Shown here one piece after another: positions 19,441 through 29,795 of a DNA stretch of 37,410 nt (position 1 is its first letter; every line of letters starts with the position of its first letter). The notes under the pieces were generated by a model. The model had not been told where the DNA came from and ran no database searches. It saw only the letters and a program-made list of their open reading frames with translations. The translations under genes and the position numbers were made by a program. The DNA is from Candidatus Methanoperedens sp. (GTDB taxonomy: Archaea > Halobacteriota > Methanosarcinia > Methanosarcinales > Methanoperedenaceae): assembly GCA_012026835.1 (NCBI GenBank), contig VEPN01000030.1:1-37410 (forward strand), read 5' to 3'.

Positions 19441-20709
19441 TTAATGCCCGTCTCCCACAAAATCCGGATGGTCTGCAAGAACAGGCATCCTGTTTACAAT
19501 CCAGCGGTAGACAAGTACCTCAATGATGACAACGGCCACAACCACCAGGGCTTCTCTCCAGAAGAAAAGCTCCCTGTGGGGAAGCTGCCAGTTGAATGTT
19601 ATTAATGTCAGATTGAAACGGTTAAGGAAGATGCCTATTATTGTCAGCATACCCGTGAACTGTATGAGACCTACTTTCCTCTTCTGCACCCCGTAATAGT
19701 ACAGGAATGGAAGAATGGCAAGCAAGATTATCTCCACAAGGAACCACTGGCCGATGGACGAATCCAGGTATTTCCATGCCCCTTCATGCGTTATGCTTAT
19801 AAGCCGGAGGCCTAAGTACGTGAAAAGTACGAACGAGGATGCCGTGCCAAGACCAAGCGTTATCTCATCGACGCTTTCAAGATAGTGGGGCGACGCGCGG
19901 TGCTTGAAAAAGACAGCCGTGAGCTTGGTCACCACTATCATCAAAGCAAGTGCTGCCCCGATGGCAGAAATAAAGGCAAGCCAGGGCAGGTACGATGTGT
20001 ACCAGAGTGGATGAACCTTTCCGGGAGCAAGAAGGAACATGGCTGAGAGGGCTGACTGGTGGAGCGTGGAAAGCATCACACCAAATATTGTAAGCCCGAG
20101 CGTCATGCTTACTGCTATCTTTCTAATTTTCCCCTGGTTCAGCCATGCAAGGATGGATGGAGAGAATTCAAGGAACTGGACAGAAAGGTAGAGAGCCACG
20201 TGCCATGCCACAAGGAACATTACGGATGCAGTACCGAATGAAATGAACATGGGGTAATATATTCTCCACGGTCTCCCAAGGTCTATCATCAGGAAGACCA
20301 CAGCAAACAGGTAACCCAGGAAGCCCAGCAGGATAGCATTCCTCACTATGGGCTGGTATTTCTTAAGCCCGAAAATATATACTGCCGTCCCGATGACAAA
20401 TCCTGATGCTGAGAAAGGCACACCGCTAAAGAGCCCCCATGTAAGGAAAAGCCCCCACGGTTGTTCGTTCGATGCTTCAGTCACCATCTCAAGGCCGAAA
20501 ATGAACCTTAAGAGTATCAGGACAAGGCCGGCAAAGACGATAATCCCTGCAAAAATATTAAGGGGGGTGATGAGGGTCTTCAGGTATTCCTTCAATGGAA
20601 GCCCGAGGAATATCTTATCCTTCACCCATTTACCTATTATCTCCGAGTTTGACGGTTCATCCTGGCGGTGTATCTGTTTTTCTATATAATCGCCTGCATA
20701 TTCGTTCAT
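19441..20709 (-). CDS. NrfD/PsrC-type membrane subunit of redox complex
   Basis: A 422-residue integral membrane protein with about ten hydrophobic helices from residue 45 on, of the NrfD/PsrC/HybB family that exchanges electrons with a membrane quinone or methanophenazine. Recognisable segments include EQPWGLFLTWGLFSGVPFSA in the first helix pair and LIDLGRPWRIYYPM. The N-terminal 40 residues are soluble and charged. Its ATG at 20709 overlaps the stop of the ferredoxin gene by one base (TAATG), so the two are coupled. With the FeS protein and the heptaheme cytochrome upstream it forms a complex resembling Hmc/Tmc/Qrc-type modules of sulfate reducers. Direction of electron flow is not known; oxidising a membrane carrier and passing electrons outward is likely. 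Confidence 0.87.
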   Translation of the reverse strand: MNEYAGDYIEKQIHRQDEPSNSEIIGKWVKDKIFLGLPLKEYLKTLITPLNIFAGIIVFAGLVLILLRFIFGLEMVTEASNEQPWGLFLTWGLFSGVPFSASGFVIGTAVYIFGLKKYQPIVRNAILLGFLGYLFAVVFLMIDLGRPWRIYYPMFISFGTASVMFLVAWHVALYLSVQFLEFSPSILAWLNQGKIRKIAVSMTLGLTIFGVMLSTLHQSALSAMFLLAPGKVHPLWYTSYLPWLAFISAIGAALALMIVVTKLTAVFFKHRASPHYLESVDEITLGLGTASSFVLFTYLGLRLISITHEGAWKYLDSSIGQWFLVEIILLAILPFLYYYGVQKRKVGLIQFTGMLTIIGIFLNRFNLTLITFNWQLPHRELFFWREALVVVAVVIIEVLVYRWIVNRMPVLADHPDFVGDGH

Positions 20710-21620
20710 TATTTATGTTCCTCCTTGACTGATTCTTCTTTATGTTCAGCATGCGGCTTCTGGTGTGACGCAAGATAAAAGCCTCCCAGAAGTGCGGGCC
20801 ATGAGACAAGCGTGAGATTGACCATGGACAGGAAATCCTTGGTCAATTTCGGATACGAGGTTATCCCTACGTTCTCAGGAAAACCAAGTTTCTCAAAAGG
20901 TACTCCTGAAATATACATCCAGCCTGTCCCTCCTGCCTCCTCTTCGCCGTAAACATGGTCGATATACTTATCCGGCTCACCCCATATGCGCTGTTTTGCC
21001 GCCTTGATCAGGTCTTTTCTCTTTCCGAATGTTATGGCTTCTACAGGGCATGCCTCGGCACATGCGGGAATAAGACCATCTTTGATCCTTTGGTGGCACA
21101 TGAAGCACTTCTGGATCTTGGGTTCAAAAGCACTGGAATATTCAAATGCCGGGACGTAGAACGGGCAGGCCGTAATGCAATAGCGGCAGCCTATGCACAG
21201 TTTCTCATCCCACACGACCGGGCCTTCCTTGCTCTTTTTCATTGCAGCTACGGGGCAGGCTGAAACGCAGGCCGGCTCGTCGCAGTGCATGCATTGCAGT
21301 TTGCGATAGACCGGTTTTCCATCCTCGCCTTCATAGCGATTGACCGCTGTGTAGGACTGGACATCTGCCACATATGGTTTTCTTTTTTCCTCAAAAACCG
21401 TGGTATCTTCAAAGGATGTCTTCGCTTCAGGCAGTTTATTAGCTTTGTTGCATGCCGCTTCGCAGCGGCGACAGCCTATGCACCTTGTGGTATCGGTCAG
21501 CATTCCCACCCGGTCCGGATTCCCTGTGAAATCTTCGGCAGCCACTGCATGTTCGCTGCCGACTATGCTCCATGCAACGATGGAACCGCCGACTTTTAAA
21601 AAGTCCCTTCTGCTGATCAT
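20709..21620 (-). CDS. Tat-exported HybA-like 4x[4Fe-4S] ferredoxin subunit
   Basis: A 303-residue iron-sulfur protein. The N-terminus is a Tat signal (SRRDFLKVG followed by a hydrophobic stretch and AVAAE), so the protein works outside the membrane. Sixteen Cys form four clusters: CIGCRRCEAAC, CMHCDEPACVSACPVAAM, CIGCRYCITACPF and CFMCH with PACAEACPVEAI. A C-terminal helix (about 265-285) anchors it, followed by a charged tail. It is the electron-wire subunit between the multiheme cytochrome and NrfD. AGGAGG lies before ATG 21620, within the end of the cytochrome gene (3-nt gap). Confidence 0.92.
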   Translation of the reverse strand: MISRRDFLKVGGSIVAWSIVGSEHAVAAEDFTGNPDRVGMLTDTTRCIGCRRCEAACNKANKLPEAKTSFEDTTVFEEKRKPYVADVQSYTAVNRYEGEDGKPVYRKLQCMHCDEPACVSACPVAAMKKSKEGPVVWDEKLCIGCRYCITACPFYVPAFEYSSAFEPKIQKCFMCHQRIKDGLIPACAEACPVEAITFGKRKDLIKAAKQRIWGEPDKYIDHVYGEEEAGGTGWMYISGVPFEKLGFPENVGITSYPKLTKDFLSMVNLTLVSWPALLGGFYLASHQKPHAEHKEESVKEEHK

Positions 21621-21623
21621 ATT

Positions 21624-22400
21624 TTATCCTCCTGCCGGCTTATGGCAGCCCTGGCATGTAGTACCAGAACGCCCGGCATGGTCTGCTGGCACTTTCGCCG
21701 CTCCAGCAATCCCGTTTGAATGGCATTTGAGGCAACTATCATGATAAACTATTTTTGCTTCCTTACCACCGTTCGGGATACCATCCTGATGGCACCTGTT
21801 GCATGTTTCCCATGTTAACTCGTGGGGCCTGTCAGGGGCCCGGATCATCGAATCTTTTGTTTCGCCAGTATGACACTTAGTGCAGCTCTCAGGCCCCCCG
21901 AAATCCTCCTTATGGCATGAGATGCACCGCTGGTGGTATGCGGCCTTAAGACCGGGCTTGCTTGAATTATGGGGGTCAGATGGTGCATTGTGGCAATCCT
22001 TACAGGCATGTATCTCATCCCCGCTATTGTGATGGCATGTTGCACATGTGACCTTGTTACTCATTACTTTATGGAATTCCGTAGCCAGCCCGTACTTGAT
22101 AGAAAGATATTCGGAGTCATTGACCCTGAACATCCAGTCACTGGCAGGATCCGCACTAATGTTTTCAGGGGATATTTCTCCTGTAACCCCGGTGTCTTCA
22201 GGTGAGTCATTTGATGCAACCACAATGGCAGCACCCCCGAAGAGCAAAGCCAGCGGGATAACAGCAGCTACCACTTTCCCTATTGTTTTCTCCCTGGATT
22301 GTAGAAGTATCCACAGAGCGATGAATGCGAAACAGAATGCCACAACTATGAGGTATTCTATTCCCTTGACAAATGTCATGTATTCGAGCAATGTTTTCAT
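21624..22400 (-). CDS. Membrane-anchored heptaheme cytochrome c
   Basis: About 258 residues. Two N-terminal membrane helices (about 12-33 and 42-61) are followed by an exposed domain with seven CxxCH heme sites: CATCH, CKDCH, CISCH, CTKCH, CNRCH, CLKCH and CQGCH. Extra His residues (for example YHQRC, PHELT, YHDSC) are likely distal ligands, as in class III cytochromes. I chose ATG at 22400 because GGAGGAT directly upstream (about 22405-22410) is the ribosome binding site; a GTG at 22412 would start within it. It leads the trio cytochrome - FeS - NrfD and follows a 480-residue regulator gene by 76 nt. Confidence 0.92.
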   Translation of the reverse strand: MKTLLEYMTFVKGIEYLIVVAFCFAFIALWILLQSREKTIGKVVAAVIPLALLFGGAAIVVASNDSPEDTGVTGEISPENISADPASDWMFRVNDSEYLSIKYGLATEFHKVMSNKVTCATCHHNSGDEIHACKDCHNAPSDPHNSSKPGLKAAYHQRCISCHKEDFGGPESCTKCHTGETKDSMIRAPDRPHELTWETCNRCHQDGIPNGGKEAKIVYHDSCLKCHSNGIAGAAKVPADHAGRSGTTCQGCHKPAGG

Positions 22401-22476
22401 TTTATCCTCCACTTTTTTATTAACCCGATTTTTTCAGTTTTTTCCTTCCTGTTTCCGTATCCGGAATTGCTTGCTT

Positions 22477-23919
22477 TTAAGGTACTCGTATTAACACCTC
22501 ACAAAAGTTATCTCCGTGTGACAATAATTTCTTAATGTCTAATTCCACCCTGCTTCCGAATGCATAGCCCATCGCCCCCTTGAATGTCTCCCTGATTGCG
22601 TGGCAGACATGTGTATCGAAGGTGTCTCCCTCAGCACATATATTGCATTTCCTGACAGTATAAAGCAGGTTTTTCCCTTCTACTTTCCATTCACATTCCC
22701 TGTGAAGCCTTGAATCCACTATCTCAAGGGCTTTCTGGAAGTCTGGCAGTCCCCAGCTCCTGATATTATTCTCCTTTTCATACTCCTGCATAAGGGATTT
22801 ACCGATCCTGCGGCCTAAAAATGTCAGGGACAGGGGTATATCAGGTATATTTTTTAGCCCTTTGAGAAAAGCCATGAACATTATCAGGTCCTGGTCCACC
22901 CTGGTATTGCTTATCTTCAGATTGCCTATGATTTCATTGATTTTGATGCCTACATCCGGCCTGTGAGTCAGGACTATCATATTGGCAGTGGATTTTGCAT
23001 CATATAGATGGCCGTTAGCTTCAAGGAGCGTAACAAGGCTCTTTTTCAGCTTCTCAATTACATCCTTGTTCCTGTAATTATGGAATACGATTATTGTCTC
23101 CCTGTCTATCTCAACCCTGTCTGCAACCCTGGAAGTTTCATATACCTCCTTTACCAGGGAAAGCATTTCTTTAAGCGGGATTTCCTGGATAGGTTTTTTT
23201 GCCAGGGTTTCTATCGTTATCTCTCCCATTGGCACTTTCCCTGCAAGCAGGTCCTCAAAGTAGTTCCTGTGGACAGTGACCATGTTATAATTACTTAACA
23301 GATGCCCGTTGATCACGGCTTTCCAGAAAGATGGGCGGCTCTTTATGGCCTTTGTTACTTCGTCCATCCCGCCGAAAAACGTGATAACGCTATCGAACGC
23401 TTCCTTTTTGTTCGACCTTGTAAGTTCGACTTTGATACACCCGTCTGAATTAAAAACAGACCTGACCTCAAGGGGCGCAATCTCAGGAGAATTTTTCACA
23501 AGGTACTGGGAGAGGATACACGCTGCGAATTTTATCTTCTGGTTCGCACCTCTTACTTCTATGAGTACATCTGAAGGAGAAGTATCATTGTCACATTTTA
23601 TGGCAAGGTCAATATCCCATTCAAGCTCACCGAACCTGCGGTTAAGATAGTCTTCAAGTTTCCCCAGTGAATTTATCAGCATGGGATCAATCAGGTCATC
23701 CAGCACATTTTCAGGGACCAGCATCCCGTCAATCTCGTTCAGCATCCATTTGAAGAGAGAATTATCTATTGCAGATAGGTTCTTAAGAGAACTGTTTTTT
23801 CCCGCCTCATCGATTATTTCCCTGATAGCGGCACTGAAGTTACCTTTATGTTTCTGTACGTATGGTTCCATCTTTTCAATGCAGTCGTTGTCAAGGGAAA
23901 TATGCCTTGTAACGATCAT
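22477..23919 (-). CDS. 480-residue RHH/V4R-like putative redox-sensing regulator, copy 1
   Basis: Unnamed family with three copies in this window, all exactly 480 residues. Residues 1-45 look like a ribbon-helix-helix DNA-binding unit: a strand VTRHISL, then two helices around CIEKMEPYVQKHKG and FSAAIREIIDEAG. The middle 350 residues are mixed alpha/beta with a highly conserved core (YNMVTVHRNYFEDLL, SRVADRVEID, NGHLYDAK). The C-terminal 65 residues resemble a V4R-type ligand-binding domain and hold Cys425, Cys439-His440, His468 and Cys473, conserved in all copies and suited to bind metal, heme or FeS. It sits 13 nt after the small membrane protein gene and upstream of the heptaheme cytochrome. 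I infer a redox- or ligand-sensing transcription regulator of the cytochrome operon. Confidence 0.6.
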   Translation of the reverse strand: MIVTRHISLDNDCIEKMEPYVQKHKGNFSAAIREIIDEAGKNSSLKNLSAIDNSLFKWMLNEIDGMLVPENVLDDLIDPMLINSLGKLEDYLNRRFGELEWDIDLAIKCDNDTSPSDVLIEVRGANQKIKFAACILSQYLVKNSPEIAPLEVRSVFNSDGCIKVELTRSNKKEAFDSVITFFGGMDEVTKAIKSRPSFWKAVINGHLLSNYNMVTVHRNYFEDLLAGKVPMGEITIETLAKKPIQEIPLKEMLSLVKEVYETSRVADRVEIDRETIIVFHNYRNKDVIEKLKKSLVTLLEANGHLYDAKSTANMIVLTHRPDVGIKINEIIGNLKISNTRVDQDLIMFMAFLKGLKNIPDIPLSLTFLGRRIGKSLMQEYEKENNIRSWGLPDFQKALEIVDSRLHRECEWKVEGKNLLYTVRKCNICAEGDTFDTHVCHAIRETFKGAMGYAFGSRVELDIKKLLSHGDNFCEVLIRVP

Positions 23920-23932
23920 ATTTTAATCCCCT

Positions 23933-24238
23933 TTAACGCTTTACCCCTTTACTGAGTTCTTCATAAAGCAGTTCTTTTTCCCTCTGGAGTTCTGCTTCCC
24001 TGCGGGCGATAGCCTTCATGGCATCGCTTGGCCTTATACTGACCATAATCCTGTTATTCCTGTCCTTCATGTATTCCCTGAGACCGTAAGCCAGGAATAC
24101 AGCGACAGCGACCGGGATCAGGAACAGCCATCCCAAAACGAAAGCCTGGAAGGCTTCACGCGGGAGGATATAAGCGGCTCCTATTACCGTTCCACCAGCA
24201 ACAGCTGTTGCAATATACTTGTTTCTATACTTCATCAT
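23933..24238 (-). CDS. Small membrane protein, 101 residues, module A
   Basis: The start of the protein is two hydrophobic helices (about residues 7-25 and 33-52) separated by the motif AAYILPREAFQAF, with a charged, helical, cytoplasmic-type tail (AIARREAELQREKELLYEEL) likely to form a coiled coil. It is paralogous to the shorter protein at 29476-29643: both share KYI.T, AAY.LP.E.F.AF..G.LFL.PV. GAAGGGTG precedes ATG 24238; the longer GTG frame from 24247 lies within that site. First gene of module A. Function unknown; it could couple the regulator to the membrane complex. Confidence 0.7.
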   Translation of the reverse strand: MMKYRNKYIATAVAGGTVIGAAYILPREAFQAFVLGWLFLIPVAVAVFLAYGLREYMKDRNNRIMVSIRPSDAMKAIARREAELQREKELLYEELSKGVKR

Positions 24239-24261
24239 ATCAATCACCCTTCAATTTGTTC

Positions 24262-24512
24262 TATCTAATGCCAACGCTAAAAGAATAATTGACAAAAATT
24301 TAGCAGGTAAAGCCAGATAATGTCATTTTATAACAAAAGAAGACAAATTATGCCATTGAATGTCATAAACTTGTCATAATTGACAAGAATTATAAATTTT
24401 TAAGCCTGATTAAATAATAATGAATCTTAAATAAATGGCAAAATATGTTTTTTCATGACATTTATTATGAATATTTCCGGGTTTTTTGTTAAATTCCATA
24501 TTTTCATGTCAA
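24262..24512 (-). promoter_or_regulatory. Cluster of about nine ATGYCA-like half-sites upstream of module A
   Basis: The intergenic region before module A holds ATGCCAA at 24268, TTGACAA at 24289, ATGTCAT at 24320, ATGCCAT at 24350, ATGTCAT at 24360, the palindrome CTTGTCATAATTGACAAG at 24370-24387 (perfect 7-bp arms, 4-bp spacer), a reversed TGGCA at 24436, ATGACAT at 24455 and ATGTCAA at 24506. Such repeats of short half-sites in both orientations suit a ribbon-helix-helix operator. The first site is part of a 13-bp motif shared with two other promoters in the window. Confidence 0.55.
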
Positions 24513-25946
24513 CCTTATTACAACTTCACAATAGTTGTCGCCATGAGTCAAAAGATGTATTATGCTTAATTCTGCCTTATCTCCAAATGCATAATTCAGT
24601 GCCCCTTTGAACGTTTCCCTGGAAGTATGGCAAACATATATATCAAATGTATTTTTCTCTGCTACGATGTTGCATTTACTGACCCTGTATAGCAGGTTAT
24701 TCCCATCCAGTTTCCATTCGCTTTCCCTGTGGAGCCTGGAATCGATTATTTGAATGGCTTTCTGGAAATTGTCAAGGTTCCATTTCTTGATGCCGTTTTC
24801 TTTTTCATACTCCTGCATCAGGGTTTTTCCTATCCTTTTCCCCAGGGCAGAGAGGGATATGGGAATATCAGGCATATCTTTAAGCCCGTTGAGAAAAGCC
24901 ATGAACATTATCAGTTCCTGGTCCACCATACTATTACTTGTTTTTAAATCATCTACTAATTCATTGATCTTGATGCCAACATCCGGCCTGTGACGCAGCA
25001 CTATCATATTGGCAGTTGCCTTTGCATCGTATAGATGGCCGTTTGTCTCCAGGAGCGCGACAAGGCTTTTCCTGATTTTCTCTATCGCTTCCTTTGTCCT
25101 GTAATTATGATGTACTATGATGGTATCTTTATCTATATCCACCCTGTCTGCGACCCTTGAACTCTCATAAACCTTCTTTATGAGTAAGAGCATTTCATTC
25201 AAAGGTATTTCCCTGATGGGTTTTTTTGCCAGGGATTCTATGGTTATTTCTCCCATCGGTATCTTATCAGCAAGCAGGTCCTCAAAGTAATTCCTGTGGA
25301 CAGTGACCATGTTATAGTTGCTCAATAAATGCCTGTTTATCATTGTCTTCCAGAAATAAGGGCGGCTCTTTATGGTCCTTATTATTTCATCGCTTTCCCC
25401 GAAAAACGTGACCAGGCTTTTACAGGCATCCTTTTTATTGGATCCTGACAGTTCAATTTTTATGCAATCGCTGAAACTGAGAACTGATTTTATCTCAAGC
25501 GGCGTACTGTCCAGTGAATTTTTTACAAGGTACTGGGACAGGATACCTGAGATAAATTTTATTTTTTGGGGAGAACCTGTCATTTCTATAGATACCCTGG
25601 AGGGGAACCTATCAGTATCATAATCCAGAGCAAGATCAATATCCCACTCAAGTTCACCGAACCTGTGTTTTAGATATTCTTCCAGTCCCTTCATAGAATT
25701 AATCAGCGAGGGGTCTAACATGTGGTCAAGTACGTCATCCGGAACAAATATCCCGTCTATCTCGGTCAGCATCCATTTAAAAAGGGAAGTCTCAATTGCC
25801 GAAGAATTCGAGCGCGAATTATATTTCAAGGCTCTGTTTATCATTTCCTTTATCGCTTTCCCGAAATTGCCATGATGCTTTTCAACGTAAGGTCTTATCT
25901 TCTCGATATATTCATCGTCAATAGAAATATGCCTTGAGACTGTCAT
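24504..25946 (-). CDS. 480-residue RHH/V4R-like putative regulator, copy 2 (stand-alone)
   Basis: Same length and layout as the copies at 22477 and 27990. The N-terminal ribbon-helix-helix-like unit reads VTVSRHISIDDEYIEK... in outline, strand VSRHISI then helices around YIEKIRPYVEKHHG and FGKAIKEMINRA. The conserved C-terminal KCNI, VCH, RETFKGA and HGDNYCEV are all present. Unlike the other two copies it is not followed by a cytochrome: the next gene on the strand starts 266 bp further on, after the half-site cluster. It has its own upstream motif at 26026-26038 and a G-run ribosome binding site seven to eight bases before ATG 25946. It may be the master regulator or a leftover of a module that lost its cytochromes. 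Confidence 0.6.
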   Translation of the reverse strand: MTVSRHISIDDEYIEKIRPYVEKHHGNFGKAIKEMINRALKYNSRSNSSAIETSLFKWMLTEIDGIFVPDDVLDHMLDPSLINSMKGLEEYLKHRFGELEWDIDLALDYDTDRFPSRVSIEMTGSPQKIKFISGILSQYLVKNSLDSTPLEIKSVLSFSDCIKIELSGSNKKDACKSLVTFFGESDEIIRTIKSRPYFWKTMINRHLLSNYNMVTVHRNYFEDLLADKIPMGEITIESLAKKPIREIPLNEMLLLIKKVYESSRVADRVDIDKDTIIVHHNYRTKEAIEKIRKSLVALLETNGHLYDAKATANMIVLRHRPDVGIKINELVDDLKTSNSMVDQELIMFMAFLNGLKDMPDIPISLSALGKRIGKTLMQEYEKENGIKKWNLDNFQKAIQIIDSRLHRESEWKLDGNNLLYRVSKCNIVAEKNTFDIYVCHTSRETFKGALNYAFGDKAELSIIHLLTHGDNYCEVVIRLT

Positions 25947-26025
25947 GATATGAACCCCCCCGTTTTTTCGTTCATTTTTAAGTATAACATTGTATCCTTT
26001 AATGGAATAACTTTCAAATCAAGAG

Positions 26026-26038
26026 TATATAATGTCAA
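26026..26038 (-). promoter_or_regulatory. Shared 13-bp motif upstream of regulator copy 2
   Basis: TATATAATGTCAA on the plus strand, that is TTGACATTATATA reading towards the gene. It matches TATCTAATGCCAA at 24262 and TATATAATGCCAA at 29668 in 11 or 12 of 13 positions. Its AT end could double as a TATA box. It lies about 85 bp before the start codon. Confidence 0.5.
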
Positions 26039-26146
26039 TGTTATGAACCTATTTGATATACTTCTGTTACCATAAACCATAAAAAAGCCCGGATTATGGC
26101 AATAAAAGGAAAAAATAGCAAAAAAGATCAGATTTGGTACATGATA

Positions 26147-27043
26147 TCAGAGTATATAGGTGCTAACTGCCTCAACCAGTACCTGGTAGGAGATCCACAG
26201 CATCCAGACACAGATAGTAAGGAATACTATGGTGAATACCAACCTTGCTAATCCAAAGATAAGGATATTGCTGGGTGTCTGATCCTTTTTGCTATTATCC
26301 GGTGTTTCATCCTTCGTCATAATCATAAGGACACTATTGGGTACCTCGCTGATTCCTTTATTCTTATTGTTATTTATCCTCTCTCTCAACTCCGGATTGT
26401 TCAGGGCTTCTTCGTATTCCGCTGCATGCTCATGTTTCATTTCCTCCTCTGAAATATTACCTGTTACCCATGACATATTCAGGAATTTTCCTAAGTGTTC
26501 ATCATAAAAATGCCCGATGAACACGGCAAGGGATGCAAGCACTGCTTCCCATGTGTGGAAAAGGTTTGCTATCTGGATAAACCCTATAGGGAAATATTGC
26601 ATGGCTGCGAAAGGATGCCACATCAATATGCCTGTGAAACCCATGACTACGGCCCCGAATCCTGCCCCGAAATATTCGAATTTCTGTTTCCAGGTATATC
26701 TGCCGAATTCTGGTTGCTTGTCGGTATACCTGAAGTAATACTTCACCTGCTGCTGGAAGTCCTGCAGGTCTTTCATATTGAACAGGATATCAAAGCGGGG
26801 TTTTTCAAGGAGATGGAATACAACATGGTAAACGCTGACCCCTATCATTAACAGGCCTGCATAGTGATGGATAAATGTCCTGTTGGCAAAACCGCCTACA
26901 GACGCTATCATCCATTGTGACCACCATTCATCCGGGAACTTCAGGGGGAATCCCGTGTAAGCCAGGAGTATGAATGTTGTAAAGAATATTATATGCTGTA
27001 CCCTCTGGTTGAGCGTGAATCTCCTGAATTTTAATTCTGTCAT
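26147..27043 (-). CDS. Cytochrome b561-type membrane protein (FdhI/thiosulfate reductase gamma-like)
   Basis: A 298-residue diheme b-type membrane cytochrome. Four main helices occur between residues 14 and 195, with candidate heme ligands His17 (RVQHIIFF), His59-His60 (FIHHYAGLL), the pair in VYHVVFH, and histidines in NLFHTWE and IGHFYDEH near the fourth helix. A long hydrophilic loop (about 205-260) leads to a fifth C-terminal helix. Such proteins oxidise menaquinol or methanophenazine and pass electrons to a c-type partner. Start ATG at 27043 lies 2 nt after the stop of the multiheme cytochrome gene, with AGGAGG ahead of it. The cytochrome b plus multiheme cytochrome pair resembles the methanophenazine:cytochrome c oxidoreductases proposed for ANME-2. 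Confidence 0.87.
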   Translation of the reverse strand: MTELKFRRFTLNQRVQHIIFFTTFILLAYTGFPLKFPDEWWSQWMIASVGGFANRTFIHHYAGLLMIGVSVYHVVFHLLEKPRFDILFNMKDLQDFQQQVKYYFRYTDKQPEFGRYTWKQKFEYFGAGFGAVVMGFTGILMWHPFAAMQYFPIGFIQIANLFHTWEAVLASLAVFIGHFYDEHLGKFLNMSWVTGNISEEEMKHEHAAEYEEALNNPELRERINNNKNKGISEVPNSVLMIMTKDETPDNSKKDQTPSNILIFGLARLVFTIVFLTICVWMLWISYQVLVEAVSTYIL

Positions 27044-27045
27044 TG

Positions 27046-27879
27046 TTAATGCCTCCTCCTTAATTCGAAATTTGATGTAATGCCAAGGATAATGAGCCCT
27101 ATTGTGAAAGTAATCTCAAAAAGTATCATTATTATGTAGAAATATGTTACCAGCTTCTTGGCATCAATGAATCCGAGATAAACCGATTGTCCTTCGTGTA
27201 CTTTGCCTCCATAGATAAAGGCATTATTGGCACCCTGGTGGCAGTCCGGTTTCCCGCAAGTAGCCGGAAGATTTGCCTGGTTTACCGCAGACTTCGGGTC
27301 GCTCTCCTGCCTGGTATCATGGTTCTCATGACAATCCGAGCATGTTGCAAGCACCTCCCCGCCGCTTATATATGCTTTGTAATGGTATGATTTTTTATAC
27401 GTATCGAACCTGTCGGTGCTGATCCCATAGTACCACGCCTGCATTTTCGTCTGGTTTTCGTGGCAGCTGGCGCACATGAGCGGGATATTTTCACTATGTG
27501 TCTGAGAATCTGGATCTTTAGAGGACAGGATATTGTGGGTGCCGTGGCAATCTGTACAGGCGGCAGCTTCCACTCTTCCTTCTTTCAGTCTTTGCCAGTG
27601 GATGCTCTCTTCATATGTGTTAGTGACTTCCGCATGGCATCTTGAGCAGAACTCCGTCATATTGACACGTGAGGGAACGCCTGTAAAATTGGTATGCATG
27701 ACATTTATGGATACGACTTCGCCGCTGATTTTTATGTCTCCCCCGTGACAGTCGGTACATGAAATATCTTTATTAAAGTGTATGCTTTCCTGAAAATCGT
27801 TTACCTCTTTGGAATGGCAATGGAAACATGAAATATCCCCGGTCTGTCCTGATACGACAAGACCACCTGCTGCCATCAA
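27046..27879 (-). CDS. Multiheme cytochrome c, six CxxCH plus one CxxxxCH, C-terminal anchor
   Basis: Six CxxCH heme sites (CFHCH, CTDCH, CSRCH, CTDCH, CASCH, CSDCH) and one unusual CGKPDCH (CX4CH), so probably a heptaheme protein. His residues in IHFNKD, IHWQR, YHYKAY and others may be distal ligands. A C-terminal helix (about residues 245-268) anchors it next to the cytochrome b561 encoded 2 nt downstream. The first standard start is ATG 27879, which cuts into the signal peptide: the same frame upstream reads RIGRSTALSIIAGIFLMAAG without any ATG, GTG or TTG before TTG 27882. An in-frame ACG at 28002, four or five bases after GAGGTG, is a possible non-standard start; a base error is another explanation. 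Gene of module B behind regulator copy 3. Confidence 0.87.
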   Translation of the reverse strand: MMAAGGLVVSGQTGDISCFHCHSKEVNDFQESIHFNKDISCTDCHGGDIKISGEVVSINVMHTNFTGVPSRVNMTEFCSRCHAEVTNTYEESIHWQRLKEGRVEAAACTDCHGTHNILSSKDPDSQTHSENIPLMCASCHENQTKMQAWYYGISTDRFDTYKKSYHYKAYISGGEVLATCSDCHENHDTRQESDPKSAVNQANLPATCGKPDCHQGANNAFIYGGKVHEGQSVYLGFIDAKKLVTYFYIIMILFEITFTIGLIILGITSNFELRRRH

Positions 27880-27923
27880 AAAGATCCCTGCAATAATGGA
27901 CAGGGCTGTTGATCTGCCGATCC

Positions 27924-27983
27924 GTGTTGTTGAAAGCCGTGTTGTTAAAAGCCATGTTGTTAAAAGCCATGTTGTTGAAAGTT
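27924..27983. repeat. Four tandem 15-bp repeats ahead of the cytochrome signal peptide
   Basis: Units GTGTTGTTGAAAGCC, GTGTTGTTAAAAGCC, ATGTTGTTAAAAGCC and ATGTTGTTGAAAGTT on the plus strand. In the frame of the cytochrome they encode a five-residue repeat L(S/L)TT(W/R). The period is a multiple of three, so copy-number change would not shift the frame. Confidence 0.9.
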
Positions 27984-27989
27984 TTGGTT

Positions 27990-29432
27990 TTAAGGTATTC
28001 GTATTACCACCTCACAAAATTTATCTCCATGAGTTAACAGATGTTTGATTTCCAGTTCCGCCTCGTTTCCCATAGCATAATTCATTGCCCCTTTGAACGT
28101 CTCCCTGGCGGTATGACAGACCGATGTGTCGAATTTATTCCCTTCGGTAGCAATATTGCATTTCTTCACTGTGTATAAGAGGTTATTTCCGTCTAATTTC
28201 CATTCACTTTCCCTGTGCAATCTGGAATCCACCAGTTCAAGGGCTTTCTGGAAAGTTTCAAGGTTCCATTTCTTTATGTCGTTCTCTTTTTCATACTCTT
28301 TCATTAATGATTTGCCTATCCTCCTTCCAAGGGCCGAAAGTGACAGCGGGATATCAGGCATATCCTTAAGCCCTTTAAGAAAAGCCATGAACATTACCAG
28401 TTCCTGGTCAACATTACTACTGCTCGTTTTCAGGTTTTCCACAATTTCATTGATTTTCATTCCAACGTCTGGCCTGTGCGTCAAATATATCATATTGGCC
28501 ATCAGCTTGGCGTCGTATAGATGGCCGTTGGCATCTAAAAGCGATATTAAGCTCTTTTTCAACTTTTCGATAGCGTCTTTACTCCTGTAATTATGGTATA
28601 AAGTAAGGGATTCTTTATCGATCTCCACCCTGTCTGCTACCCTTGAGGTCTCGTAAACATCTTTTATCAGTAAAAGCATCTCTTTCAATGGTATTTCCCT
28701 GATAGGTTTTTTTGCCAGGTTCTCTATCATGACCTCCCCGGAAAGCGTATTGCTGGCAAGCATATCCTCAAAGTAATTCCTGTGGATGGTGACCATATTG
28801 TAATTACTTGAAAGATGCCTGTTGATAAGGGATTTCCAGAAGTCCGGCCTGTTCTTTATCACTTTCATAGCTTCATCCATTCCCCCGAAGAAGTTGACAA
28901 GGCTGCTAATTGAGTCCTTTTTATCGGATCTTGCCAGTTCAACTTTTATACATTCATTGAAATTAACAATTGAAATTATCTGAAGCGGCGCCTTTTCAAG
29001 CGAGTTCTTCACAAGAAAGTGTGATAATAAACGCGCAACAAATTTTATCTTAAGGGGTTCGCCTCCGACCTCCATTAATATATTCGAAGGGAATACATCG
29101 TTGTCGCTTTTTAAGGTCAGGTAAATATGCCATTCAAGCTCACTGAACCTGCGGTTCAGGTAATCTTCGAGTTTTGCGATAGAATTTATCTGTCCGGGAT
29201 CGATAAGTTCATCAAGGATATCATCAGGAACAAGCCTGTCATCTATTTCTGTTAGCATCCAGTTAAACAAGGATATATCGATCGCCGATGAATTCATGCG
29301 CGGGCTGTATTTTCCTGCCCTGTTTATCATTTCCCTTATGGCAGCGCCGAAATTGCCGTGGTGCTTTTCAACGTACGGCTTCATTTTCTCGACGTGTTCA
29401 TCGTCAATTGATATATGCCTTGTAACGTTCAT
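27990..29432 (-). CDS. 480-residue RHH/V4R-like putative regulator, copy 3
   Basis: Third 480-residue paralogue. The N-terminal strand VTRHISI and helices around VEKMKPYVEKHHG and FGAAIREMINRAG match the ribbon-helix-helix plan. The core YNMVTIHRNYFEDML, SRVADRVEID and NGHLYDAK is retained, as are C-terminal KCNI, VCH, RETFKGA and HGDKFCEV. A clear AAAGGAGG precedes ATG 29432. It lies 43 nt after the small membrane protein gene of module B and just upstream of the multiheme cytochrome and cytochrome b561 genes, repeating the gene order of module A. Divergence in the 100-220 region is greater than in the core, suggesting different ligand or partner specificity. Confidence 0.6.
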   Translation of the reverse strand: MNVTRHISIDDEHVEKMKPYVEKHHGNFGAAIREMINRAGKYSPRMNSSAIDISLFNWMLTEIDDRLVPDDILDELIDPGQINSIAKLEDYLNRRFSELEWHIYLTLKSDNDVFPSNILMEVGGEPLKIKFVARLLSHFLVKNSLEKAPLQIISIVNFNECIKVELARSDKKDSISSLVNFFGGMDEAMKVIKNRPDFWKSLINRHLSSNYNMVTIHRNYFEDMLASNTLSGEVMIENLAKKPIREIPLKEMLLLIKDVYETSRVADRVEIDKESLTLYHNYRSKDAIEKLKKSLISLLDANGHLYDAKLMANMIYLTHRPDVGMKINEIVENLKTSSSNVDQELVMFMAFLKGLKDMPDIPLSLSALGRRIGKSLMKEYEKENDIKKWNLETFQKALELVDSRLHRESEWKLDGNNLLYTVKKCNIATEGNKFDTSVCHTARETFKGAMNYAMGNEAELEIKHLLTHGDKFCEVVIRIP

Positions 29433-29475
29433 ATTTTAGCCTCCTTTCCACCGATTCTCCTCTTGTATGTATCAT

Positions 29476-29643
29476 TCAATTTCTGGCTACCGATTGGAGC
29501 ATATACACAAAGAAGGACACCGGGACAAGGAACAATCCTCCGGCAAAGAATGCGAGGAATGTTTCCGCAGGAAGACTATATGCCGCCGCCATGAATACTG
29601 CCGCTGCAATTGTTGCCACAATATACTTCACCTTATTTTCCAT
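29476..29643 (-). CDS. Small membrane protein, 55 residues, module B
   Basis: Two hydrophobic helices around the motif AAYSLPAETFLAFFAGGLFL, paralogous to the N-terminal half of the 101-residue protein of module A but without its charged tail. I chose ATG 29643, which has AAGGAG eight or nine bases upstream; the longer TTG frame from 29664 would begin ahead of that site. First gene of module B, followed by regulator copy 3. Function unknown. Confidence 0.65.
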   Translation of the reverse strand: MENKVKYIVATIAAAVFMAAAYSLPAETFLAFFAGGLFLVPVSFFVYMLQSVARN

Positions 29644-29667: not shown

Positions 29668-29680
29668 TATATAATGCCAA
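29668..29680 (-). promoter_or_regulatory. Shared 13-bp motif upstream of module B
   Basis: TATATAATGCCAA on the plus strand, 25 bp before the start of the small membrane protein gene. It is the third copy of the motif found at 24262-24274 and 26026-26038. The AT-rich flank toward 29690 may contain the TATA box proper. Confidence 0.5.
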
Positions 29681-29795
29681 TATTAAAAAATCATTTGAGA
29701 ATATTTTGTAAGAGAAATGCCTTATTGCGTCATGTGCGCTGTATCGTGGATTTCAGTGGGCACGAATTAAAATTCGATGATTTTTTTAAAAATGA

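Follow-up and report, generated by a model that had tools for sequence, protein, structure and literature searches.

Multiheme cytochrome (MHC) modules like those studied here have been described as MK:cytochrome c oxidoreductase groups, in which a b-type cytochrome lies by a 6-heme MHC, or an NrfD protein by a 4Fe-4S protein and an MHC (PMC7327174), and our locus has the same gene content. An extracellular electron transfer (EET) cluster, Metp_01713-01722, matches our locus gene for gene, by order and not by sequence, and has ‘unknown proteins’ at the positions of the regulator-like (REG) and small membrane (sTM) proteins discussed below (PMC10874420). Both MHCs of that cluster are given seven hemes there, versus seven and six in our case. 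The sequence-only reading of this DNA had considered the layout undescribed; as far as the accessible portions of these two papers go, the redox modules and apparently the entire gene order are already published, while the REG- and sTM-position proteins are not called regulators and no promoter motif is given. In ANME archaea, Mco is a VhtC-type methanophenazine:cytochrome c oxidoreductase with a VhtC-type cytochrome b and a 7- or 11-heme MHC (PMC9012536). The Hmc complex of sulfate reducers resembles module A of our locus in its HmcB- and HmcC-like subunits and in a weak HmcD-like start of the cytochrome gene, but its cytochrome has 16 hemes versus 7, and the HmcA, HmcB and HmcC matches miss their equivalog cut-offs (56/400, 387/420 and 394/550 bits). 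We know of no REG in Hmc.

On the regulator side, MsvR (methanogen-specific V4R regulator) is an archaeal, autoregulatory protein with demonstrated redox-sensitive DNA binding (PMC3729527), and resembles REG in an N-terminal DNA-binding part, predicted in the case of REG, and in a C-terminal V4R domain with conserved Cys. MsvR has a helix-turn-helix (HTH) and about 250 aa, whereas REG has a ribbon-helix-helix (RHH)-like start, then a core of about 270 aa that lacks annotation; Pfam and NCBIfam find no HTH family in REG. The operators also differ: that of MsvR, TTCGN7-9CGAA, has 0 matches within our window, and the candidate operator of REG is TGNCA. In the V4R alignment REG has two of the three MsvR Cys positions (C439 and C473); the remaining position is Leu (L465) in REG, whose third conserved Cys is C425. 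MetJ, Arc, omega, CopG and NikR have an N-terminal strand-helix-helix sequence pattern like that of REG, but classical RHH regulators are small proteins with no V4R domain, and REG falls below the Pfam RHH cut-off. MetJ and omega use arrays of short tandem half-sites that follow the helical phase, as the candidate sites of REG do. MetOD1 (PF18546; PMC5847659), an output domain of archaeal response regulators found in methanogens, resembles REG in its V4R/HNOB-like fold and three conserved Cys; the match is weak (2/22 REG members), and unlike the MetOD1 response regulators REG has no receiver domain and has an RHH-like N-terminus. We also weighed MreA (TrmB family) and HdrR (winged HTH) as known relatives, and discarded both.

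The analysed window is a stretch of 37,410 nucleotides from Candidatus Methanoperedens sp. (GCA_012026835.1, contig VEPN01000030.1, positions 1-37,410), with the focus on 19441-29643, and all listed genes of both modules and REG1-3 are on its minus strand. Its features are as follows.

19441..20709, minus: NrfD/HmcC-like membrane quinol-interacting subunit, module A (PF03916, 1.2e-14; NF045714 HmcC, 394 bits, cut-off 550)
20709..21620, minus: HmcB-like 4Fe-4S protein, module A (PF13247, 1.2e-20; NF045715 HmcB, 387 bits, cut-off 420)
21624..22412, minus: mhcA, multiheme cytochrome, module A, 7 CXXCH by count and an N-terminal membrane segment (Cytochrome_C7, 2.8e-6)
22477..23919, minus: REG1, 480 aa, regulator-like; V4R-like domain at about residues 335-480 (about 22480-22917)
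23933..24247, minus: sTM104, two-helix membrane protein with a charged cytosolic tail, operon A gene 1
24262..24282, minus: operon A core promoter element TTTTAGCGTTGGCATTAGATA, 0 mismatches, one of two exact genome matches
24268..24461, no strand: array of nine WTGNCAW sites, candidate operator (24268, 24289, 24320, 24350, 24360, 24371, 24380, 24435, 24455); helical phasing p=0.0035, period 10.4
24504..25946, minus: REG2, 480 aa, regulator-like, between the modules
26026..26046, minus: core promoter element before REG2, TCATAACATTGACATTATATA, 2 mismatches
26147..27043, minus: cytochrome b561/FdhI-like membrane subunit, module B (PF01292, 3.8e-15; TIGR01583, 69 bits, cut-off 116)
27046..27879, minus: mhcB, multiheme cytochrome, 6 CXXCH, module B, start uncertain
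27907..27996, no strand: 15-bp tandem repeat between REG3 and mhcB, overlapping the REG3 stop
27990..29432, minus: REG3, 480 aa, regulator-like; V4R-like domain at about residues 335-480
29476..29643, minus: sTM55, two-helix membrane protein without cytosolic tail, operon B gene 1
29668..29688, minus: operon B core promoter element TTTTAATATTGGCATTATATA, 0 mismatches

An RBS-like GGTGATC suggests that sTM104 starts at 24238, while sTM55 has 55 aa counted from the ATG at 29643. As drawn, the mhcB reading frame has no credible start and no signal peptide. The 15-bp repeat is present as a single copy in sister species L041.

The earlier reading had described three paralogues of one length, two of them in a common gene order with different redox partners, and this is borne out. 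REG1-3 are each 480 aa and ATG-started at the coordinates it gave, with P0002 and P0003 aligning to P0001 without gaps at 68% and 69% identity. Module A runs from the 104-aa sTM through REG1, the 7-CXXCH cytochrome and the HmcB-like 4Fe-4S protein to the HmcC/NrfD-like protein, and module B from its sTM through REG3 and the 6-CXXCH cytochrome to the cytochrome b561/FdhI-like protein; REG2 lies between them without a cytochrome of its own. The 10-gene order was found again in about ten further loci of congeneric genomes, where a gene with at least four CXXCH lies no more than two genes away from 46/73 close REG homologues, compared with 7/281 control genes. This difference and the recurring order show that the association of REG with cytochromes exceeds chance, and the proposal of a dedicated regulator-like family tied to cytochrome modules is supported in other genomes. 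Surveyed loci were selected by REG, so that the finding of a REG upstream of mhcA in 19/19 cases is a biased count; nor are orthologous loci independent of one another. A scan of genome contigs added only two further loci, and one of viral contigs none. The modules had also been called interchangeable, which is not supported: REG1 belongs to one orthologous lineage with module A, comprising all but one of the congeneric REGs that precede mhcA, whereas REG2 and REG3 fall in a separate mixed clade.

Homology links the two sTM proteins (44% over 48 aa). In the window's own genome each of the four copies adjoins a REG, as do 51/53 across the examined loci, which were selected by REG. We found sTM only in 28 Methanoperedens genomes, the window's own genome and one further genome from the family. 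The REG family itself is not confined to cytochrome loci, with members at three or more other places of the own genome that have no cytochrome nearby, and with some that adjoin histidine kinases or stand alone, away from redox modules. In a sister family that we take as ANME-2a-type, more distant relatives lie next to Rnf-cytochrome genes, and in a family taken as Methanosarcinaceae next to the mtr operon. Other RHH and V4R regulators also occur in the genus.

REG1-3 represent an undescribed archaeal family with an RHH-like N-terminus, an unannotated core and a C-terminal domain of the V4R/TRAPP/H-NOX type. Searches of Pfam and NCBIfam with single REG proteins gave nothing significant, and their single-sequence V4R scores in Pfam are below the cut-off. 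The evidence for the V4R-type C-terminus, which the sequence-only reading had correctly anticipated, is strong: hhalign gives 96.8% (E 2.8e-10 over 120 columns) and a score of 73, compared with at most 20.3 for 120 natural decoys. A first column-shuffle null had one outlier (99.4%) above the real score, which disappeared once the null was limited to columns with <50% gaps. Foldseek with the domain model (pLDDT 76, pTM 0.73) finds Bet3/TRAPP (1.7e-4), H-NOX (4.6e-4) and the MopR sensor (4.6e-3) at probability 1.00. As to the Cys and His residues that had been thought invariant, Cys425, Cys439 and Cys473 are nearly so, being present in 99, 100 and 99 of the 102 long forms, but conservation of the His is lower (76/102 and 73/102). 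The evidence for the RHH-like N-terminus is moderate. Against the NikR RHH, hhalign gives 39-63% with scores of 22-23, versus at most 10% and 20.5 for decoys, but PF01402 (RHH_1) matches only 7/22 members below its cut-off (best E 0.011), and we grade this region as moderate because the probability fell to 11% when two divergent RHH sequences were added to the NikR set. The full-length AlphaFold model is poor due to too little alignment depth (pLDDT 60), and shows low-confidence helices at 11-23 and 28-42 and no strand. A duplication suspected within the core domain found no support in hhalign (0.1%) and was discarded.

The promoter element shared by the sTM/REG operons, TTTTANNNTTGNCATTAKATA, is new here. 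At up to one mismatch it occurs at three places in the 3.32 Mb own genome, all before sTM genes beside REG paralogues: two in the window, and a third ahead of the sTM pair that neighbours a fourth REG. Across 14 more genomes of the genus, 30/33 matches at this threshold adjoin REG or sTM genes. Upstream of operon A, TGNCA arrays of 4-11 sites are found in 12 loci, compared with a mean of 0.46 and a maximum of 2 sites in 112 control intergenic regions, and 21/25 WTGNCAW clusters in 1.27 Mb adjoin REG/sTM. The operon A sites are in helical phase, the array is conserved in related species, and 8/11 arrays tested have a phasing p<0.02. Several solitary REGs have no array, nor was one found upstream of the more distant REGs. 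The specificity of these motif arrays for REG/sTM genes supports control by DNA binding.

The sequence itself shows the order of the genes, the V4R homology, the specificity and phasing of the motif and the linkage of sTM; DNA binding by REG, sensing, the function of sTM and the sign of regulation are what we infer. REG1-3 are likely to be autoregulated, probably redox- or ligand-sensing DNA-binding regulators that, with an sTM partner, control two menaquinol:cytochrome c exit routes. They would act as one-component sensor-regulators, REG1 and REG3 being encoded within the operons that they control. Through its RHH-like N-terminus, REG would form dimers that recognise TGNCA half-sites. One such site lies in the core promoter of each operon, in or beside the TATA region; the eight further sites upstream of operon A share one helix face, as cooperative stacking of RHH dimers predicts. 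The V4R-type C-terminus with its three near-invariant Cys may act as a sensor, of redox state or of a hydrophobic or metal ligand, that alters DNA binding, as in MsvR. The sTM, encoded just before REG under the same promoter, could be its partner in the membrane, signalling the condition of the membrane or of the quinone pool. The predicted outcome is an autoregulated circuit that sets the levels of two menaquinol:cytochrome c oxidoreductases feeding EET.

It is possible, though we doubt it, that the paralogues form a switch, sensing different conditions and competing at shared operators such that module A or B dominates. Cross-binding is plausible because one core element is common to all three promoters and the N-terminal strands are nearly alike (VTRHIS or VSRHIS), and the oxidoreductase groups reported in PMC10542353 differ between nitrate and electrode. 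However, one element before both modules predicts co-regulation equally, opposite signs of regulation are not seen in the sequence, and the cluster in PMC10874420 contains both module kinds, with some genes up on the electrode and the same patterns at four potentials. Rather unlikely is that another transcription factor occupies the TGNCA sites, with REG and sTM as co-regulated passengers or non-DNA-binding signalling proteins. The moderate RHH evidence, the solitary REGs without arrays and the further RHH and V4R regulators of the genus would agree with this, but the element is nearly confined to REG/sTM surroundings, which fits autoregulation, and the MsvR operator is not among the motifs of the window. 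We hold it very improbable that REG and sTM belong to the oxidoreductases as structural or assembly subunits, sTM tethering REG to the membrane: both are indeed encoded within the operons, where REG immediately precedes the cytochrome, and V4R-fold proteins include non-regulatory TRAPP subunits, but family members also occur away from redox modules, adjoining histidine kinases or alone, and relatives lie beside Rnf and mtr operons in the two families taken as ANME-2a-type and Methanosarcinaceae. We know of no REG-like subunit in Hmc or Fdh-type complexes. Most unlikely is a recent duplication in tandem that left the paralogues functionally unconnected to the cytochromes. Three similar genes in tandem, and the at least three own-genome places with family members and no nearby cytochrome, would suit it, but orthologues of REG1 follow module A throughout the genus, the 10-gene order recurs and the operons share a promoter element.

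Autoregulated control by REG would bear on a published observation: in the accessible parts of PMC10542353 and PMC10874420, expression varies with the electron acceptor and acceptor-dependent use of the modules is reported with no regulator named, the latter finding no expression difference between four electrode potentials. More speculatively, and with considerable doubt, the family may represent a new archaeal one-component control, in which an RHH-V4R regulator and a two-helix membrane protein read quinone-pool redox and set electron exit via a phased operator array, with versions accompanying cytochrome modules, Rnf-cytochrome and Mtr across methane-metabolising archaea. The analysis describes an unannotated regulator family that adjoins Rnf-cytochrome, Mtr and cytochrome modules, and gives a probable role to five ‘unknown proteins’ of the published electrode-induced cluster. 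It also puts names to the genes and the DNA element and offers a small candidate regulon for EET; these lend themselves to in vitro tests that need no culture of the archaeon.

The window carries three minus-strand open reading frames of 480 residues each, and their positions and identical length are those the sequence-only reading had assigned to three regulator-like paralogues:

22477-23919, minus strand: REG1 (P0001)
24504-25946, minus strand: REG2 (P0002), 68% identical to P0001
27990-29432, minus strand: REG3 (P0003), 69% identical to P0001

The paralogues align without gaps, and the minus-strand gene order from 29664 is sTM55, REG3, mhcB, cytochrome b, REG2, sTM104, REG1, mhcA, 4Fe-4S protein and NrfD. 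The small two-helix membrane proteins sTM55 and sTM104 are homologous to each other, while the multiheme cytochromes mhcB and mhcA have 6 and 7 CXXCH motifs, respectively. The previously noted succession of small membrane protein, REG, multiheme cytochrome and membrane redox partner is indeed present twice, as sTM104-REG1-mhcA-4Fe-4S-NrfD (operon A, with module A) and sTM55-REG3-mhcB-cytochrome b (operon B, with module B). NCBIfam puts the 4Fe-4S protein near HmcB, the NrfD protein near HmcC and cytochrome b near formate dehydrogenase gamma, in each case short of the equivalog cut-off. At 27880-27996, mhcB is without a canonical in-frame start codon that would take in its signal peptide; the gene may use a non-standard start codon, may overlap REG3 or may have a disrupted start. 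A 15-bp tandem repeat lies between REG3 and mhcB in several copies, with one copy in a sister species (L041).

Earlier studies already describe such clusters. Leu et al. (PMC7327174) include both kinds found in the window among five MK:cytochrome c oxidoreductase clusters, and Zhang et al. (PMC10542353) report acceptor-dependent expression of such oxidoreductase groups. The cluster Metp_01713-01722 of Ouboter et al. (PMC10874420), some genes of which were upregulated on an electrode, comprises NrfD, FeS, MHC, three unknowns, cytochrome b, MHC and two unknowns. This order equals that of the window, contrary to the initial impression that no system with this layout had been described, and by gene order and number the unknowns would correspond to REG and sTM. 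A literature search for V4R with ribbon-helix-helix (RHH) in archaea returned only a survey of archaeal two-component systems. The cluster itself is already known; its putative regulators and candidate operator are new.

Single-sequence searches with REG gave no significant match. Among 22 diverse long family members, the commonest weak Pfam matches were V4R and RHH_1, in 7 members each; next came MetOD1 in 2, a domain described as V4R/HNOB-like. The proposed V4R-type C-terminus was borne out when a profile of residues 325-480 was compared with one built from 30 V4R proteins of related genomes (96.8%, E 2.8e-10). The match scored 73, while none of 120 natural decoys exceeded 20.3. The sole PDB sequence match of the family profile was a TRAPP subunit (E 0.02), and a domain model of residues 330-480 (pLDDT 76, pTM 0.73) matched Bet3/TRAPP, H-NOX and the MopR phenol sensor, all of one superfamily. 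Of the Cys/His residues thought invariant, Cys425, 439 and 473 are retained in 97-98% of 102 long members, but His440 and His468 in only about three quarters. The N-terminal 45 residues have an RHH pattern and match NikR in register, with a score of 22-23 and a probability of 39-63% where decoys reached no more than 20.5 and 9.7%, but the outcome varies with the RHH set used. The core (about residues 52-330) had no known relative. Shorter family members include a form of about 350 residues without the V4R part and one of about 240 residues that ends near residue 220; the latter was seen in other families of the phylum (eight loci).

About ten more loci in the genus have the 10-gene order or an evident variant of it, and nine further loci have a single module with its own REG. 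Of the 73 close REG homologues, 46 have a neighbor with four or more CXXCH motifs no more than two genes away, compared with 7 of 281 control genes drawn from random congeneric DNA, and sTM lies equally close to 61 of the 73. Because REG was the means of finding these loci, and they are related among themselves, the counts show an association but should not be read as independent events. Beyond the window's own genome, sTM was found in 28 Methanoperedens genomes and in one more from the same family, with no further occurrence among 150 genomes of the order. In the REG tree, 18 of 19 REGs preceding mhcA group with three solitary REGs in one supported set (99/96), while those preceding mhcB and those between modules form a second, mixed set (100/98). 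REG1 thus goes with module A, and, contrary to the sequence-only reading, the modules are not interchangeable around one regulator.

More distant relatives have other neighbors. In family f2 of the order, with gene content like ANME-2a, a REG homologue has an Rnf operon with an 8-CXXCH cytochrome on one side and an Mrp antiporter operon on the other at two loci (L086, with genes assigned by Pfam, and L088), and the Rnf side is beside it at four others. In family f5, like Methanosarcinaceae in gene content and size, short forms without V4R adjoin mtrEDCBAFGH at five loci (identified by Pfam in L124, and by gene size and order in L123, L125, L129 and L131) and form triple arrays at four. Divergent members directly before sensor histidine kinases and receiver-like proteins (L045:10995-16836, L099:10149-14186) suggest a link with two-component signaling. 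Given these neighbors, REG is a general signaling family, the cytochrome link being specific to the Methanoperedens clade.

Upstream of operon A, 12 loci have 4-11 TGNCA sites, whereas 112 control intergenic regions averaged 0.46 and never exceeded 2. Scrambled control words fell short of the enrichment seen for TGNCA. The window's array has nine sites with successive spacings of 21, 31, 30, 10, 11, 9, 55 and 20 bp. Of 11 arrays tested, 8 were significantly phased at 9.8-11.2 bp (p<0.02, with the period scanned in the null too), and between species site position is kept while the central base often differs (window versus L049). Clusters of four or more WTGNCAW within 150 bp number 25 in 1.27 Mb of congeneric DNA, and 21 of these lie next to REG or sTM genes. 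No TGNCA array was seen upstream of the more distant REG relatives. Promoter-proximal sites share the longer context YTTTTANNNTTGNCATTAKATA. Allowing one mismatch, TTTTANNNTTGNCATTAKATA occurs at three places in the window's own 3.32-Mb Methanoperedens genome: operon A, operon B and C77:13142, directly upstream of two paired sTM genes next to a fourth REG. The REG2 promoter has two mismatches, and other two-mismatch matches in this genome are no more frequent than in the reversed control. With up to one mismatch allowed, 14 other congeneric genomes gave 33 matches, of which 30, counted by hand, adjoin REG or sTM genes; one of the 30 belongs to an sTM gene (G021:C1:163980-164314) with no REG found beside it, possibly a remote target.

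The regulatory interpretation of the sequence-only reading is partly supported and is strengthened by this promoter evidence. Judged from sequence, the simplest account of REG would be an autoregulated one-component system, in which the N-terminus would bind the candidate TGNCA arrays and a signal sensed through the V4R domain would change that binding. MsvR, in which V4R cysteines affect redox-dependent DNA binding, is a precedent (PMC3729527). As the first gene of both cytochrome operons, sTM is a natural candidate for a membrane partner of REG, though its function is a guess. Promoter elements common to modules A and B and REG2 suggest that all three are under joint control, with far more sites at A.
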